A stretch of 64,000 nucleotides of DNA from Marinobacter sp. F4206 (GTDB taxonomy: Bacteria > Pseudomonadota > Gammaproteobacteria > Pseudomonadales > Oleiphilaceae): positions 124,001 to 188,000 of the forward strand of contig NZ_JAHXKI010000004.1 of the NCBI RefSeq assembly GCF_019392195.1, written 5' to 3'. The notes below the pieces were generated by a model. It was not told the DNA's origin. It was given only the letters and a program-made list of their open reading frames with translations, and searched no databases. Position numbers and translations under genes: made by a program. This document shows positions 49,109 through 55,428 of this stretch, piece by piece; within the stretch, counting starts at the first letter, position 1; every line of letters starts with the position of its first letter.

Positions 49109-51262
49109 TCACTCCGATTTAGCCGCTGCCACCTGTTTTGCCTGAACCGCGGTTAGTGCGATGGTGAACACGATATCCTCCACCAGGGCGCCGCGGGACA
49201 GATCGTTAACGGGTTTCCTCAGGCCCTGAAGCATGGGGCCAATACTGACCACGTTCGCGCTTCGCTGAACGGCCTTGTAGGTGGTGTTGCCGGTATTCAG
49301 GTCCGGAAACACGAAAACCGTCGCCTTCCCCGCAACCTTGCTGTGAGGCGCCTTGCTCCTGGCAACGCTCTCGATGGCAGCGGCATCGTATTGCAGGGGC
49401 CCGTCGATGATCAGGTCGGGGCGACGTTCCCGGGCAATCCGGGTCGCTTCCCGTACCTTGTCGACGTCCTGACCGGTGCCGGATTCGCCGGTACTGTAAC
49501 TGATCATGGCCACCACCGGATCGATACCAAACGCTTCTGCTGATTCCGCGCTCTGAATGGCGATATCGGCCAGTTCCTCCGCGTTGGGATCCGGATTAAT
49601 GGCGCAGTCGCCATAGACGACCACCTGTTCCGGTAAAAGCATGAAGAAAACCGAGGACACAACCTTGGCGTGTTCGTGGGTCTTGATCAACTGCAGGGCA
49701 GGTCGGACGGTATTGGCGGTGGTATGTATCGCGCCGGATACCAGGCCATCGGCCTCATCCTGAGCCACCATCATGGTTCCCAACACCACATTGTCCTCAA
49801 GCATGGCTTCTGCCATATCCGGAGCCAGTCCCTTATGCTTCCGCAAGTTAACCATGGGCGCGATATAATTGCTGCGAACGTCGGCCGGATTGATAACCTC
49901 AATGTCGTCCGGCAGGGTCAACCCCTGATTGGTGGCTACGTTTCGGATCTCGGAAGGATCTCCAATCAAGACACAACGGGCCAGCCCGCGCTCGTGGCAG
50001 ATGATTGCTGCCTGCACGGTCCGCGGCTCGCTGCCTTCCGGCAGGACGATTCGCTTGTTTGCTGCGCGGGCGCGCTCGGACAATTGATGGCGGAATGCCG
50101 GTGGCGACATCCGGTTCTGGCGCTGGACCTTCAGGTGCGCCTGGAGCCAGTCCGTATCAATGCGGGTGGCGACCATTTCCATGGCCTTTTCGATGCGATC
50201 CGGGTCGTCGACCGGAATCCCTGCCGAAAGATTCGCCAGCATATGCGCTGTTTCATAGGTGTTGTTCTCTGAACCCAGCACCGGCAGCCCTGTGTCCAGG
50301 GCCCGTCGGCACAGTTCGATGACTCGGGGGTCGGGCATCAGCCCGCCCGTCAACATTAGGCCGGCCAGCGGAACCCCGTTGAGGGCCGCGACCGCGGTGG
50401 TCACCACAATATCCTCGCGGTCTCCGGGGGTGACTAGCAGTGTTCCAGGCTTGAGTGTTTCGGTCATGTTGGGGATCGTTCTGGCGCAGACAGAGACGTT
50501 CTGGACACGACGGTTCTGCATCTGCCCCTCGCTCAGTACATCAATGTCAAGTTCACGGGCAATGTCTGAAACGCGCGGAGCCAACAAGTCCGGTTGCCAC
50601 GGGATTTCCGCCAAGAGCCTGAAACGGTCTTCGCTGAACACCCTGCATTGCCGCCGGTAATCCGTTGTGTCCGGCGTCGGCGCCGACGACCGTTGCAGTG
50701 AAAGGCCGGATCGCTCTGGCTCACCGACCTTGTTGAGGATCACGGCAATCACGTCTGGATCGGAGGGATCGGCGAACAGCCTTGCCCAGAAGTCGAGTTC
50801 CTCGTCCAGCGTAGCGGCGTTGCTGTTATCCGGAGTGCTCACCAGGATGACTTCGGAGCCCAGATTGCGGGCGACCTCGACATTCAGCCGGGCAATGTAG
50901 GCTTCGCTCCGATCAGGGACAAGACCCTCAATGACCACGACATCCACGTCTTTTGCGACGCTCTGGTATTCACCGACAATATTTTCCATCAACAGGTCGG
51001 ACTTGCCGCGATTAAGCAGGTGTTGGGCCTGTTTCAGGGAGATGGGGTCCGGTGGCTGCAGATGACTACGGGTGCGAACGAACTCAACCGAGGTGTCCTT
51101 GCCATCGTTGTGCAGGGTTTCTCCCTGATGGACCGACTGATGGAAAGGTTTGTAGAAGCCAACGCTGACGCCCACCCGCTCCAGAGCCCGGAGCAGGCCC
51201 AGGCAGACCGAAGTGAGGCCGGAGTTCATGGAAGTTGGTGCGATGAAGAGACTTTTTGCCAT
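49109..51262 (-). CDS. pta: Phosphate acetyltransferase (long, three-domain form)
   Basis: A 717-residue enzyme that interconverts acetyl-CoA and acetyl phosphate. Residues 1-215 are a P-loop/BioD-like region (SLFIAPTSMNSGLTSVCLGL), 220-340 a DRTGG domain, and 385-710 the PTA_PTB catalytic domain (RIVLPEGSEPRTVQAA, GAIHTTANTVRPALQ and VFPDLNTGNTTYKAVQR). The ATG at 51262 follows AGGA. It lies 26 bases after ackA in the same operon. Confidence 0.96.
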   Translation of the reverse strand: MAKSLFIAPTSMNSGLTSVCLGLLRALERVGVSVGFYKPFHQSVHQGETLHNDGKDTSVEFVRTRSHLQPPDPISLKQAQHLLNRGKSDLLMENIVGEYQSVAKDVDVVVIEGLVPDRSEAYIARLNVEVARNLGSEVILVSTPDNSNAATLDEELDFWARLFADPSDPDVIAVILNKVGEPERSGLSLQRSSAPTPDTTDYRRQCRVFSEDRFRLLAEIPWQPDLLAPRVSDIARELDIDVLSEGQMQNRRVQNVSVCARTIPNMTETLKPGTLLVTPGDREDIVVTTAVAALNGVPLAGLMLTGGLMPDPRVIELCRRALDTGLPVLGSENNTYETAHMLANLSAGIPVDDPDRIEKAMEMVATRIDTDWLQAHLKVQRQNRMSPPAFRHQLSERARAANKRIVLPEGSEPRTVQAAIICHERGLARCVLIGDPSEIRNVATNQGLTLPDDIEVINPADVRSNYIAPMVNLRKHKGLAPDMAEAMLEDNVVLGTMMVAQDEADGLVSGAIHTTANTVRPALQLIKTHEHAKVVSSVFFMLLPEQVVVYGDCAINPDPNAEELADIAIQSAESAEAFGIDPVVAMISYSTGESGTGQDVDKVREATRIARERRPDLIIDGPLQYDAAAIESVARSKAPHSKVAGKATVFVFPDLNTGNTTYKAVQRSANVVSIGPMLQGLRKPVNDLSRGALVEDIVFTIALTAVQAKQVAAAKSE

Positions 51263-51288
51263 ATTGGAATCCTGATAGGTGGAGGTGG

Positions 51289-52485
51289 TCACACCGTTTG
51301 AGTCGTTTCCGCGAGGCGGAGTGCTTCCCTGGCAATGACCAATTCTTCATTGGTGGGGATCACTAGTACCGGAAACCGGGAGCTGGCGCTATCGATGCGG
51401 CCGTCGCTGTATAGACCGTTGCAGTTATTCAGATCATGATCGAGCTCGAAGCCCAAAAGCCGGAGGTGGCTCAGGGTCTGATGTCTTACCCGGGAGCTGT
51501 TCTCACCAATGCCGCCGGTAAATACCAGGGCATCCAGGGTCGTTAAGGAGGCCATCATGGCGCCTACGTACTTGGCGAGCCGGAAACAGAAAACGTCGAT
51601 CGCCAGTTCGGAGGGTTTGTGTCCGTGATCCGCAAGGTCGCACAGGGATCTCATATCGTTGGACTGGCCGGACAGCCCGAGCAGTCCGCTCTCTTTGTTC
51701 AGAACTTCATGAACTTCGGACGCGGGAATGCCTTTTCCGGCGAGGAAATCAAACAACCCCGGGTCAACATCGCCACTGCGAGTGCCCATGACCAGACCTT
51801 CCAGGGGGGTCAGGCCCATGCTGGTATCGACACTGATGCCATCGCGGATTGCGCTGATGCTGCAGCCATTGCCCAGATGTGCAGAGATAATCGATGTGGT
51901 TGCCGGGGTGCGATCGAGGAGTCGGGCGGCTTCCCGGGACATGAAATAGTGGCTGGTGCCATGGAAGCCGTATCGTCGTACCGCCCAGTCCCGGTAATAG
52001 GCCTCGGGCAGAGCATAGTGAAACGCTCTCGGTGGCAGAGTCTGGTGGAATGCTGTATCAAAAACGGCAACCTGAGGGACATGCGGGTACAGGTTGCGCG
52101 TCGCGGAGATGCCAGACAGATTTACCGGGTTATGCAGCGGCGCCAGTCCCGAGCAATCGGTGATGGATTTGATGACGTCTTCATCCAACAAGGCGGCTTC
52201 CCGAAAAGTTTCACCGCCGTGAACAACACGATGGCCAATAGCAGCGGGATCCTGCTTGAGGGTGCCCTGATTTCTGAAGGCGTCCATCAATGCCCTCAGG
52301 GCCGTTTGATGAGATGCACCGGAAGGCAGAGCGGTGGGCTCGTCGACACCCGCGATGCGGGCAAAGGCCTCGTCAGTGTCCAGTCGCTCAGCCAGAGCCG
52401 ATACGATTTTCTCCAGGCGGCTGTTGAACACCGCAAGTTTCAGTGAGGAACTGCCGCAATTGACGACAAGTATGTTGGCTTCCAT
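51289..52485 (-). CDS. ackA: Acetate kinase
   Basis: A 398-residue enzyme that makes ATP and acetate from acetyl phosphate or the reverse. It starts MEANILVVNCGSSSLKL and has GHRVVHGGE, FDTAFHQTLP, HLGNGCSISAI and FTGGIGENSS, all ASKHA/acetokinase motifs. First gene of ackA-pta. The ATG at 52485 is preferred over a TTG three codons upstream. Confidence 0.97.
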   Translation of the reverse strand: MEANILVVNCGSSSLKLAVFNSRLEKIVSALAERLDTDEAFARIAGVDEPTALPSGASHQTALRALMDAFRNQGTLKQDPAAIGHRVVHGGETFREAALLDEDVIKSITDCSGLAPLHNPVNLSGISATRNLYPHVPQVAVFDTAFHQTLPPRAFHYALPEAYYRDWAVRRYGFHGTSHYFMSREAARLLDRTPATTSIISAHLGNGCSISAIRDGISVDTSMGLTPLEGLVMGTRSGDVDPGLFDFLAGKGIPASEVHEVLNKESGLLGLSGQSNDMRSLCDLADHGHKPSELAIDVFCFRLAKYVGAMMASLTTLDALVFTGGIGENSSRVRHQTLSHLRLLGFELDHDLNNCNGLYSDGRIDSASSRFPVLVIPTNEELVIAREALRLAETTQTV

Positions 52486-52505
52486 GGTTTCCAAGGTCCT
52501 GAGGA

Positions 52506-54923
52506 TCAGATCTGTACGCGCTGATTGGTTTTGAGCCAGTTCTCGAAGTCACGCGCGGGCAGGGGGCGGCTGTAGAAGTAGCCCTGGGAGAAATCGCAGC
52601 CTTCCTGTTTGAGGAAATGGGTTTGAGGTTCCTCCTCGACACCCTCTGCAATGACGCGCAGCCCAAGGCTGTGGGCCATATTGATGATAGCGCGGACCAG
52701 GGACGCATCCTCGGGCTCCTTCATGACATCCTGCACGAACGACTTATCGATTTTCAGGGTGTCGAACGGATAGCTCTTCAGATAACTGAGCGCCGAGTAG
52801 CCGGTCCCAAAATCATCCACGGATAGTCGAATGCCGGCCCGGTCGAGTTCGCGAAGGATTTCCGCCGTTTCAATTGAATTGTCGAGGATCAGACGCTCGG
52901 TTATTTCCAGTTCAAGCTGGTCGGCCGCAAGGCCACTGTTCGACAGGGCGCGCATGACTGCGTCGGTAAAGCCCGGGTCGCGGAATTGCCGGGGCGATAC
53001 GTTAACGGAGATTCCCACATCCCGTCCGGTTATCTTTTTCCACTCGACCGCCGCTTTGCACGCCTCTTCAAGAACCCATTCGCCGATGGGGATGATCAAC
53101 CCGGTTTCCTCCGCGAGCGGAATGAAGCGGTCGGGCATGACCATGCCCATTGTCGGGTTGTTCCAGCGCAACAGGGCCTCGACGGAACACAGATTGCCGG
53201 AATCGGTATGGACGATGGGCTGGAAGTTCAGCTCGAACTCCTGCAGCTCGAGCGCCCGTCTCATGCGTGACTCCATTTGCAGCCGTTCGTGGGAAACTTC
53301 GGTCATCTCGGGTGCAAAGTGGGCGTAGGCGCTCTTGCCCTTGTGTTTGGCCTGGTACATGGCCGCGTCTGCATGCTGAAGCAGGGTTCCGCTGTTGTCG
53401 GAGTCGGTCGGGAAAATGGCAATGCCAATGCTGGTGGTGACGAACACTTCCTGGCCGTTAAGAATGTACGGCGGCTCGAACGTCTTCAGGATGCGGTCGG
53501 CTACCTGTGAGGAGGCATCGGGGCCGGTCAGGCCCGGCAGGATTACCAGGAATTCGTCCCCGCCGAGCCGGGCCACAGTACTGGTGCCCCTCAGGCAACT
53601 CGAAATTCGACGCGCGGCCTCAATCAGCAGGTTATCGCCGGCGTCGTGACCCAGGGTGTCATTGATGTGTTTGAAATTGTCCAGGTCCAGGAACATGACC
53701 CCGACCAGGGTGTTTTCACGCCGCGCCTGGGCCAGGGCCAGCTTGAGCCGGTCCAGCGCGAGCATGCGGTTGGGGAGGCCCGTGAGAATGTCGTAGTTCG
53801 CCTGACGCAATAGCTGTTGTTCGTAGCGTTTGCGAATACTGATGTCTTCCCCAAGAATCAGGTAGCCGGTGGCCTGGCCGGCAGCATCCTTGATGGGGGT
53901 GACGATCAACTGTTCCCAGAACCTTTCCCCGTTTTTCCTGACGCTGTTAACTTCGCCCTGCCACACGCCGACACGCTGTACCTGAAGCCGGATGGATTGC
54001 CACAGATGCCGGCTTTCGCGATTCTCAACATCGTTTTCGCCCAGTGATCCGGGGTGCTTGCCAATGATCGACTTGGCGTCATAGCCAGTCAGCTGAGTGA
54101 ATTTCTGGTTGGCAAACTCGATTCGCCATTGACGATCGCAGATAAGAACCGAGGAGGGGCTCTGTTCGATGGCTTTGGAGAATTTGTGGATCTCGGCGGC
54201 ATCCCGCTCCTGGCGAGCAAGATCGTCGTTCAGTCGCTCCCGCATCTGATTGATGGCATCGGTTACTCGCCCCAGCTCGTCATTGCGATTCGATGGCGTT
54301 TCAGGCCGGTCGAGGACTAGGGGGCGCGAGAGATTGGCGAGGCTGAAATCGCGTGCGTAGGCCGCCATGGTGGACAGATGTCGAGTCACGAAATGCTGGA
54401 AGATCAGGATGATCAGAATGGAGACGAAGAAGGTTTTCAGGAACTGGGTGGCCAGAATGATGCCGACCTTTCGTTCCATCTCCTTATAAACCCGTTCGAG
54501 GTCCGCGGTGACCGTCAGCTCGCCAAGCTTGAACATCTCATCACCCTGGTGGACCAGACTGAAGCTGTGGGAGCGGGTTTGGGAGCCTCGTGAAATATCG
54601 CCCATCACCAGCTCGGAGTCTGGCTCGATCCGCAACCTTAAATGCACGATGTCCGGGAGACTGAGTATCCCTTCCATTTGGGTTTGCAGCAGTTTCTGGT
54701 CCAGGGCCCAGAGACTTCTGGCCAGGCTGGACGCGTAGCCTGATTCGACAACCATCATGCGGTTATCAATTTGGGAGAGGTCTTTGCGATAGTCGGAGTA
54801 AATCTGGATGCCCGAAGCGATCAGGGTAAAGACCGAGCTGAACAAAAGTATCCACGCCAGCAGCCTGAAGGACAGGGGAGAGCTTTTTCGAAAACGTTGG
54901 AGCCGCGTCGACAGTTTTGGCAT
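52506..54923 (-). CDS. Membrane-bound PAS-GGDEF-EAL protein
   Basis: An 805-residue signalling protein. A membrane helix near residues 20-40, a periplasmic domain to about 160, a second helix near 165-180, HAMP (185-245), PAS (250-365), GGDEF (375-535) and EAL (545-800). The GGDEF motif is intact (ARLGGDEF), but the upstream inhibitory RxxD site reads RGTS. EAL residues are intact (SVEALLRW, ELEITERL, DDFGTGYSA, TLKIDKSFV, AEGVEEE). It could make or break c-di-GMP; the EAL side looks fully active. It starts at ATG 54923 or GTG 54941. Confidence 0.9.
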   Translation of the reverse strand: MPKLSTRLQRFRKSSPLSFRLLAWILLFSSVFTLIASGIQIYSDYRKDLSQIDNRMMVVESGYASSLARSLWALDQKLLQTQMEGILSLPDIVHLRLRIEPDSELVMGDISRGSQTRSHSFSLVHQGDEMFKLGELTVTADLERVYKEMERKVGIILATQFLKTFFVSILIILIFQHFVTRHLSTMAAYARDFSLANLSRPLVLDRPETPSNRNDELGRVTDAINQMRERLNDDLARQERDAAEIHKFSKAIEQSPSSVLICDRQWRIEFANQKFTQLTGYDAKSIIGKHPGSLGENDVENRESRHLWQSIRLQVQRVGVWQGEVNSVRKNGERFWEQLIVTPIKDAAGQATGYLILGEDISIRKRYEQQLLRQANYDILTGLPNRMLALDRLKLALAQARRENTLVGVMFLDLDNFKHINDTLGHDAGDNLLIEAARRISSCLRGTSTVARLGGDEFLVILPGLTGPDASSQVADRILKTFEPPYILNGQEVFVTTSIGIAIFPTDSDNSGTLLQHADAAMYQAKHKGKSAYAHFAPEMTEVSHERLQMESRMRRALELQEFELNFQPIVHTDSGNLCSVEALLRWNNPTMGMVMPDRFIPLAEETGLIIPIGEWVLEEACKAAVEWKKITGRDVGISVNVSPRQFRDPGFTDAVMRALSNSGLAADQLELEITERLILDNSIETAEILRELDRAGIRLSVDDFGTGYSALSYLKSYPFDTLKIDKSFVQDVMKEPEDASLVRAIINMAHSLGLRVIAEGVEEEPQTHFLKQEGCDFSQGYFYSRPLPARDFENWLKTNQRVQI

Positions 54924-54982
54924 GCCGTGAACTTCTGCCACCCAGTCTGGTTTAGGGGAACGGAGGTGTCGTTACCTTTCCG

Positions 54983-55084: not shown

Positions 55085-55126
55085 TTGATATGGATCAATA
55101 CCTCCGGGTCGAAGCCGGCGTAATCT
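55085..55126 (+). promoter_or_regulatory. FNR/Anr site and promoter of the small CcoM-like gene
   Basis: TTGAT-ATGG-ATCAA at 55085-55098 is a perfect FNR/Anr palindrome. A -10 element TAATCT lies at 55121-55126, which puts the site centre at about -41.5 from the predicted start near 55133. This is the class II activation geometry of FNR-type promoters. The gene at 55165 follows. Confidence 0.75.
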
Positions 55127-55164
55127 GAACCCAATCAAGTAACTAATTGGTTGGAGAGCAAAAA

Positions 55165-55314
55165 ATGTATATGGATGCTGTCGTTATCGCGGGGATTGTT
55201 GCTGTGCTGCTGGTACTGGGATTCTTTGTCGGCGTCGGGGTCTTTGTAATGAAAGACCAGAAGGCGCATGGCCGTGGGCCGGAAAAGCGGAAGCATGGCG
55301 GAAAGCCAGTCTGA
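55165..55314 (+). CDS. Small membrane protein resembling cbb3 oxidase subunit CcoM
   Basis: A 49-residue protein: a short start MYMD, one membrane helix (AVVIAGIVAVLLVLGFFVGV, then GVFV) and a charged tail MKDQKAHGRG with many Lys/His/Gly. The pattern M-[YF]-x-D-x-V-V-x-A-G, then F-x-x-G-x-G-x-F and K-D, recalls from memory the CcoM subunit seen in the Pseudomonas stutzeri cbb3 oxidase. GGAG lies eight bases before the ATG. An FNR/Anr-type promoter precedes it, which fits a microaerobic oxidase. No cco genes are nearby. The family assignment is an inference; that a real small gene lies here is well supported by start signals and promoter. Confidence 0.62.
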   Translation: MYMDAVVIAGIVAVLLVLGFFVGVGVFVMKDQKAHGRGPEKRKHGGKPV

Positions 55315-55334
55315 CAACCTTTCAGAAAAGGTTG
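55315..55334. terminator. Hairpin between the small gene and tRNA-Glu
   Basis: CAACCTTT-CAGA-AAAGGTTG, a perfect 8-base stem directly after the small gene stop and before the 3' end of the convergent tRNA-Glu. T-runs are weak. Confidence 0.5.
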
Positions 55335-55352: not shown

Positions 55353-55428
55353 TGGCGTCCCCTAGGGGGTTCGAACCCCTGTTGCCGCCGTGAAAGGGCG
55401 GAGTCCTAGGCCACTAGACGAAGGGGAC
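55353..55428 (-). tRNA. tRNA-Glu (TTC anticodon)
   Basis: A 76-base tRNA with encoded CCA. The acceptor stem GTCCCCT pairs with AGGGGAC. The anticodon loop is CTTTCAC, giving TTC (GAA/GAG). The T-loop TTCGAAC is normal. The sequence is close to the E. coli tRNA-Glu. It is transcribed alone from a strong promoter. Confidence 0.96.

Follow-up and report, generated by a model that had tools for sequence, protein, structure and literature searches.

What protein is encoded by the short open reading frame that lies behind a perfect FNR/Anr-type palindrome in Marinobacter sp. F4206, and does the palindrome serve this frame? The locus is situated in a stretch of 64,000 nucleotides on contig 4 (referred to as the window, i.e., the whole of the DNA analyzed). 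The frame is read here as ccoM, the gene of accessory subunit M of the cbb3 cytochrome c oxidase, with which bacteria respire at low oxygen. The gene would be activated by Anr/Fnr from a class II promoter together with the cco genes when oxygen is low, and its product would aid the oxidase. A probability of about 0.9 is given to this reading. The gene and its upstream signals are as follows.

55085 to 55098, forward strand: FNR/Anr-type palindrome TTGAT-N4-ATCAA, a perfect and conserved match, predicted class II activator site
55121 to 55126, forward strand: predicted -10 element TAATCT, read from the sequence and conserved in the family loci
55153 to 55158, forward strand: Shine-Dalgarno-like GGAGAG, read from the sequence
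55165 to 55314 including the stop, forward strand: ccoM, 49 amino acids, assigned by NF041600, 5djq_N, conservation, a pN far below pS and hydropathy

The original prediction described a 49-residue single-helix protein with good start signals, and this was borne out. As read from the sequence, the frame begins with an ATG (55165-55167) preceded by GGAGAG and ends with a TGA (55312-55314). The Kyte-Doolittle profile of the protein shows one peak (2.92 at residues 5-23 and 2.96 at residues 11-29), and the 19-residue windows from residue 23 onward are below 0, which gives one predicted transmembrane helix at approximately residues 5-29. The NCBIfam equivalog model for CcoM, NF041600, scores the frame at 51.8 bits against a cut-off of 40. 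It is the sole NCBIfam model to reach its own cut-off with the 49-residue sequence, and no Pfam model reaches its cut-off. The best PDB match of the single sequence is chain N of 5djq (36 residues), with an E-value of 2e-4 over residues 1-32, and a 46-row profile of relatives matches the same chain with an E-value of 2.2e-19, spanning all of its residues 1-36. This chain is labelled "putative uncharacterized protein" in the PDB record; we take 5djq to be the cbb3 oxidase of P. stutzeri and chain N to be CcoM. The likeness to CcoM was therefore claimed slightly too cautiously, given the passed NF041600 cut-off and the match to 5djq_N. The 46-row profile was drawn from 88 diverse sequences, a set from which the loci L167 (CTG where the others have ATG) and L185 (running off a contig end) were excluded; L185 was retained in the site and tail counts and left out of the residue counts and the selection test. 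The genome carries one copy of ccoM, and the 15 named relatives that were found all belong to Marinobacter, the nearest with 92% identity. The claim that default gene callers would miss a frame of this length is doubtful, as NCBI has a curated CcoM model and the minimum gene length of Prodigal is 90 nt.

Judged by its sequence, the frame encodes a CcoM of the usual kind; it lies apart from the cco genes and is predicted to be co-regulated with them by Anr. The protein shares with CcoM of P. stutzeri (Stutzerimonas; 5djq_N, NF041600) the N-terminal box M-Y/F-x-D, the helix pattern, the basic-D exit and the single helix, whereas the Marinobacter protein has 49 residues instead of 36, the 13 extra tail residues being basic and containing glycine and histidine. 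The longer basic/histidine tail that had been pointed out is thus real, but it is weakly conserved, its length and sequence varying past residue 36. The median tail after residue 33 measures 17 residues in the taxonomic family and 6 in the other loci read. The gene also stands apart from the cco operon, presumably as in P. stutzeri. The ccoN gene is located on contig 2 and is followed by ccoO, ccoP, ccoG and a gene for a CcoI-like P-type copper ATPase; ccoN, ccoO, ccoP and ccoG all exceed their model cut-offs. The statement that ccoM is not next to cco genes therefore holds in this genome.

The palindrome at 55085-55098 has the sequence TTGATATGGATCAA, i.e., TTGAT-ATGG-ATCAA, and its center lies at -41.5 relative to a transcription start predicted at 55133. 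The predicted combination of a perfect site with a -10 element at class II distance was confirmed. The palindrome is the one perfect FNR/Anr site in the window. At up to one mismatch, 3 matches were observed in the window against 1.74 expected, and 144 places were found in the whole genome, so that a lone motif match marks no target and conservation has to do so. Of 197 ccoM loci, 164 have a site with no more than one mismatch in the 250 nt upstream of the gene, and 33 lack one. The 164 are made up of 120 out of 137 family loci and 44 out of 60 loci from the rest of the order (60 of the 85 loci from CcoM-positive genomes outside the family were read). Among the controls, 1.2% of letter-shuffled upstream regions contain such a site, as do 37 of 3102 windows taken from other parts of these loci. 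A chance palindrome was rejected on this conservation, which is decisive although the motif counts in the window and the genome are uninformative. When the 120 family loci are aligned on the site, T occupies -12 in 75%, A occupies -11 in 95% and T occupies -7 in 75% of them, and no separate -35 signal was found in this alignment. The site is centered 72 to 74 nt before the ccoM start codon in 79 of the 120. The -10 signal of the 44 loci outside the family is weaker and lies one base further upstream. These features point to a conserved class II FNR/Anr promoter architecture before ccoM, at which Anr/Fnr would bind and activate transcription.

The strict FNR/Anr motif was not found at the matching place before ccoN of the same genome; a strict site with one mismatch lies farther off, 234 nt before the ccoN start. 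The idea that ccoN is under different control from ccoM, suggested by this absence, was rejected when a relaxed pattern, TTGAY-N4-RTCAW, revealed a site 77 nt before ccoN (TTGACCTGAGTCAT) that is weaker than the ccoM site and has CATACT at class II spacing from it. In 38 of 41 loci (F4206 itself and 37 of 40 relatives), the center of a relaxed site falls 65-100 nt upstream of ccoN. This count is partly fitted because the pattern was chosen after the ccoN sites had been viewed, and the distances are approximate because the ccoN start was placed 24 nt ahead of the model match by analogy with F4206. The 40 upstream regions were hand-picked from the list of ccoN matches and are all on the forward strand. 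Upstream of ccoM, 180 of 197 loci contain this pattern and 17 lack it, and it occurs in 9 of 1550 control windows. The predicted promoter of ccoM thus has the site type, the center near -41.5 and the -10 element of class II FNR/Anr promoters such as the one predicted for ccoN, the site being stronger at ccoM and weaker at ccoN of this genome.

An Fnr/Anr gene is present in the genome (NF008365, 249.6 bits against a cut-off of 228), and its product contains a CX2CX5C motif near the N-terminus. Dnr/Nnr-type regulators, which respond to nitric oxide, and other regulators of the CRP/FNR family can share the Anr motif, and the genome contains three weaker matches to the Fnr model, all below the cut-off. 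That one of these regulators, and not Anr, is the main user of the ccoM site is nevertheless unlikely in view of the same site layout before ccoN, although shared use with Dnr/Nnr-type regulators is compatible with that layout. In PMC6588701, where five Pseudomonas species are compared, ccoN has predicted Anr boxes in every species except one, which also counts against a non-Anr regulator. The identity of CcoM and its Anr-type control are both supported as far as sequence can tell.

Under Anr-type control of ccoM, falling oxygen would lead Anr/Fnr to bind at 55085-55098, and the bound regulator would activate the class II promoter, so that CcoM would be made together with the products of the cco operon encoded elsewhere in the genome. 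CcoM would then insert into the membrane as one helix, pack on the oxidase core and help the assembly or stability of the oxidase. Binding and activation by Anr, membrane topology and incorporation into the oxidase are what we infer for CcoM, the C-terminus being placed inside because of the positive tail, and the stabilizing role is a presumed one carried over from the Pseudomonas papers. In the extracts of PMC10433244, the cbb3 subunits of P. stutzeri are lower under oxygen-limited conditions, with CcoN, CcoP and CcoQ higher aerobically, which counts against the account of induction at low oxygen; the authors speculate there that the oxygen-limited cells had fully switched to denitrification.

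A stronger role has also been considered, in which CcoM acts as a low-oxygen-limited control point in the assembly of the cbb3 oxidase and its longer basic tail in Marinobacter provides an additional, lineage-specific contact on the cytoplasmic face. As the ccoM site is nearer to the consensus than that of the cco operon, the supply of CcoM and not that of the core subunits would set the amount of stable oxidase formed when oxygen declines. Such a role appears quite improbable. To return to a CcoM that is made with the cco products and aids the oxidase, the CcoM family, the protein and the regulator are already known; the modest novelty may lie in an Anr-type promoter that is conserved between families of an order, and this may be new in print. 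Among the paper titles listed from one open-licence library, none concerned the regulation of ccoM, and a term search found no occurrence of ccoM in the text of the Pseudomonas Anr core-regulon study PMC6588701. The extracts of PMC10433244 and PMC8267372 discuss CcoM solely in Pseudomonas.

Lack of conservation of the frame in related genomes, named in the original prediction as a ground for giving it up, was checked and the frame was found to be conserved. The CcoM model matches in 137 of the 163 genomes of the taxonomic family, 135 of them exceeding the cut-off, and in 100 of the 390 genomes of the order sample, 90 of them exceeding it. For codons 1-33, the pooled pS is 0.38 and the pooled pN is 0.073 (239 pairs with pS of 0.1-0.5), and this pattern is reversed in the two shifted frames, a comparison that is somewhat biased because the pairs were limited to a pS of 0.1-0.5 in the true frame. 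These values indicate that the ccoM frame is under purifying selection. In the 46-row alignment M1 and D4 are invariant, and V7, G10, V14, F20, G23 and D31 are at least 90% conserved.

The presence of ccoM is closely tied to that of the oxidase. Among the 390 genomes of the order, 99 contain both ccoM (E ≤ 0.001) and ccoN (E ≤ 1e-150), 1 contains ccoM alone, 192 contain ccoN alone and 98 contain neither; the association has a one-sided Fisher p of 4e-14, with related genomes treated as independent. The single ccoM-positive genome without a ccoN match is 54% complete. These counts show that ccoM hardly occurs without the cbb3 oxidase, that the oxidase often occurs without ccoM (192 of 291 ccoN-positive genomes have no CcoM match), and that CcoM is not obligatory. 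Within the family, 26 of the 163 genomes gave no convincing CcoM even by profile, the best match having an E-value of 0.02 and falling inside a 683-codon open frame. With a threshold of E = 0.001, ccoN is matched in all 26, although the match in G016, G075 and G099 is much weaker than in most; the 26 genomes form a natural contrast set for the function of CcoM. One of them, G136, is a single contig that is 100% complete, and it has kept ccoN. The family genomes without any ccoN match, G019 and G107, are both CcoM-positive and both drafts. Since CcoM is spread in the order (100 of 390 genomes), is accompanied by ccoN in 99 of those 100 and stands behind a conserved FNR/Anr-type site, a low-oxygen role is easy to test outside Pseudomonas.

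It is very improbable that the frame encodes another small membrane protein, such as KdpF, an unrelated single-helix peptide or CcoQ (like CcoM, a small membrane-bound accessory subunit of the cbb3 oxidase), and resembles CcoM only in hydrophobic composition. Single-helix proteins readily give weak matches, and the frame does match the models of the ExoX repressor (E = 0.0091) and KdpF (E = 0.11) in NCBIfam and an insulin-receptor transmembrane model in Pfam (E = 0.0078), all below their cut-offs. Against this, the CcoM model alone exceeds its cut-off in either collection, ccoN accompanies CcoM in nearly all the CcoM-positive genomes of the order, and the invariant and conserved residues go beyond what composition alone gives. 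A CcoQ/FixQ model, which Pfam presumably contains, is not among the matches listed to an E-value of 10 for the frame in NCBIfam or Pfam. CcoQ, KdpF and an unrelated hydrophobic peptide were rejected on these model results and on the residue conservation. CcoM and CcoQ are stated to have low mutual identity in the extracts of PMC8267372. Two relatives of CcoM below the cut-off, at L187:1483-1602 (reverse strand) and L188:1501-1632 (forward strand), come from two genera, have a clearly different helix (MYMDTIIMTSL...) and possibly represent a divergent subfamily.

The neighborhood of ccoM contains the following features.

52509 to 54941, reverse strand: gene of a CHASE5-HAMP-PAS-GGDEF-EAL protein, divergent neighbor
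55316 to 55333, no strand: short inverted repeat, AACCTTT-CAGA-AAAGGTT, read from the sequence just past the ccoM stop and lacking a T run
55353 to 55428, reverse strand: tRNA-Glu (ttc), identified by ARAGORN, convergent downstream neighbor, a positional marker outside the function

That the palindrome belongs to the divergent GGDEF/EAL gene or is fortuitous is barely credible, for although it sits between the two genes and is of a type near chance level in the window at up to one mismatch, and although a relative of the GGDEF/EAL gene precedes ccoM in 113 of the 137 family loci (and in 0 of the 60 others), 63 of the 84 loci (out of 197; 24 in the family and 60 others) that are without this neighbor keep the site at up to one mismatch, so that the neighborhood changes and the site stays, and the -10 element of the family loci is in register toward ccoM. 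The assignment of the site to the GGDEF/EAL gene was rejected on the 63 of 84 loci. The intergenic region is common to both genes, and the site could in principle affect the GGDEF/EAL gene too.

The description of ccoM as an orphan holds only in part: it is not beside cco in F4206, but among the six loci read in longer stretches there are three, L313-L315, all belonging to a single further family of the order, in which ccoM adjoins an fnr/anr-type frame and is separated from ccoN by 9-11 kb that include cco genes. L314 and L315 were scanned with the Fnr model, and the frame in L313 was recognized by its cysteine motif only. In all three loci, a site deviating by no more than one base precedes ccoM by 67-106 nt; that of L314, on the ccoM strand, is CTGATCTATATCAA, with one mismatch and centered 69 nt before ccoM. 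Two perfect FNR/Anr palindromes, 32 nt apart, are present between the fnr/anr-like frame and ccoM in L313 (L313:12715-12728 and L313:12747-12760). In L316, ccoM lies approximately 12 kb from ccoN, and no cco accessory or fnr gene was found between them, as judged by the first residues of the open reading frames; by the same means, none was found near ccoM in L317 and L318. The loci L313-L316 were chosen for the nearness of ccoM and ccoN on one contig, and L317 and L318 are Pseudomonas-like controls.

Genes of phosphate acetyltransferase and acetate kinase (49112-52494, reverse strand) follow the GGDEF/EAL gene in F4206, and the proximity of acetate overflow genes to a low-oxygen gene may be either meaningful or a coincidence. 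On the other side of ccoM, the convergent tRNA-Glu follows in 106 of the 137 family loci but in none of the 60 others. In adjoining tRNA-Glu, the ccoM of this family differs from that of P. stutzeri. The inverted repeat between the convergent ccoM and tRNA-Glu genes is possibly a weak transcription end.
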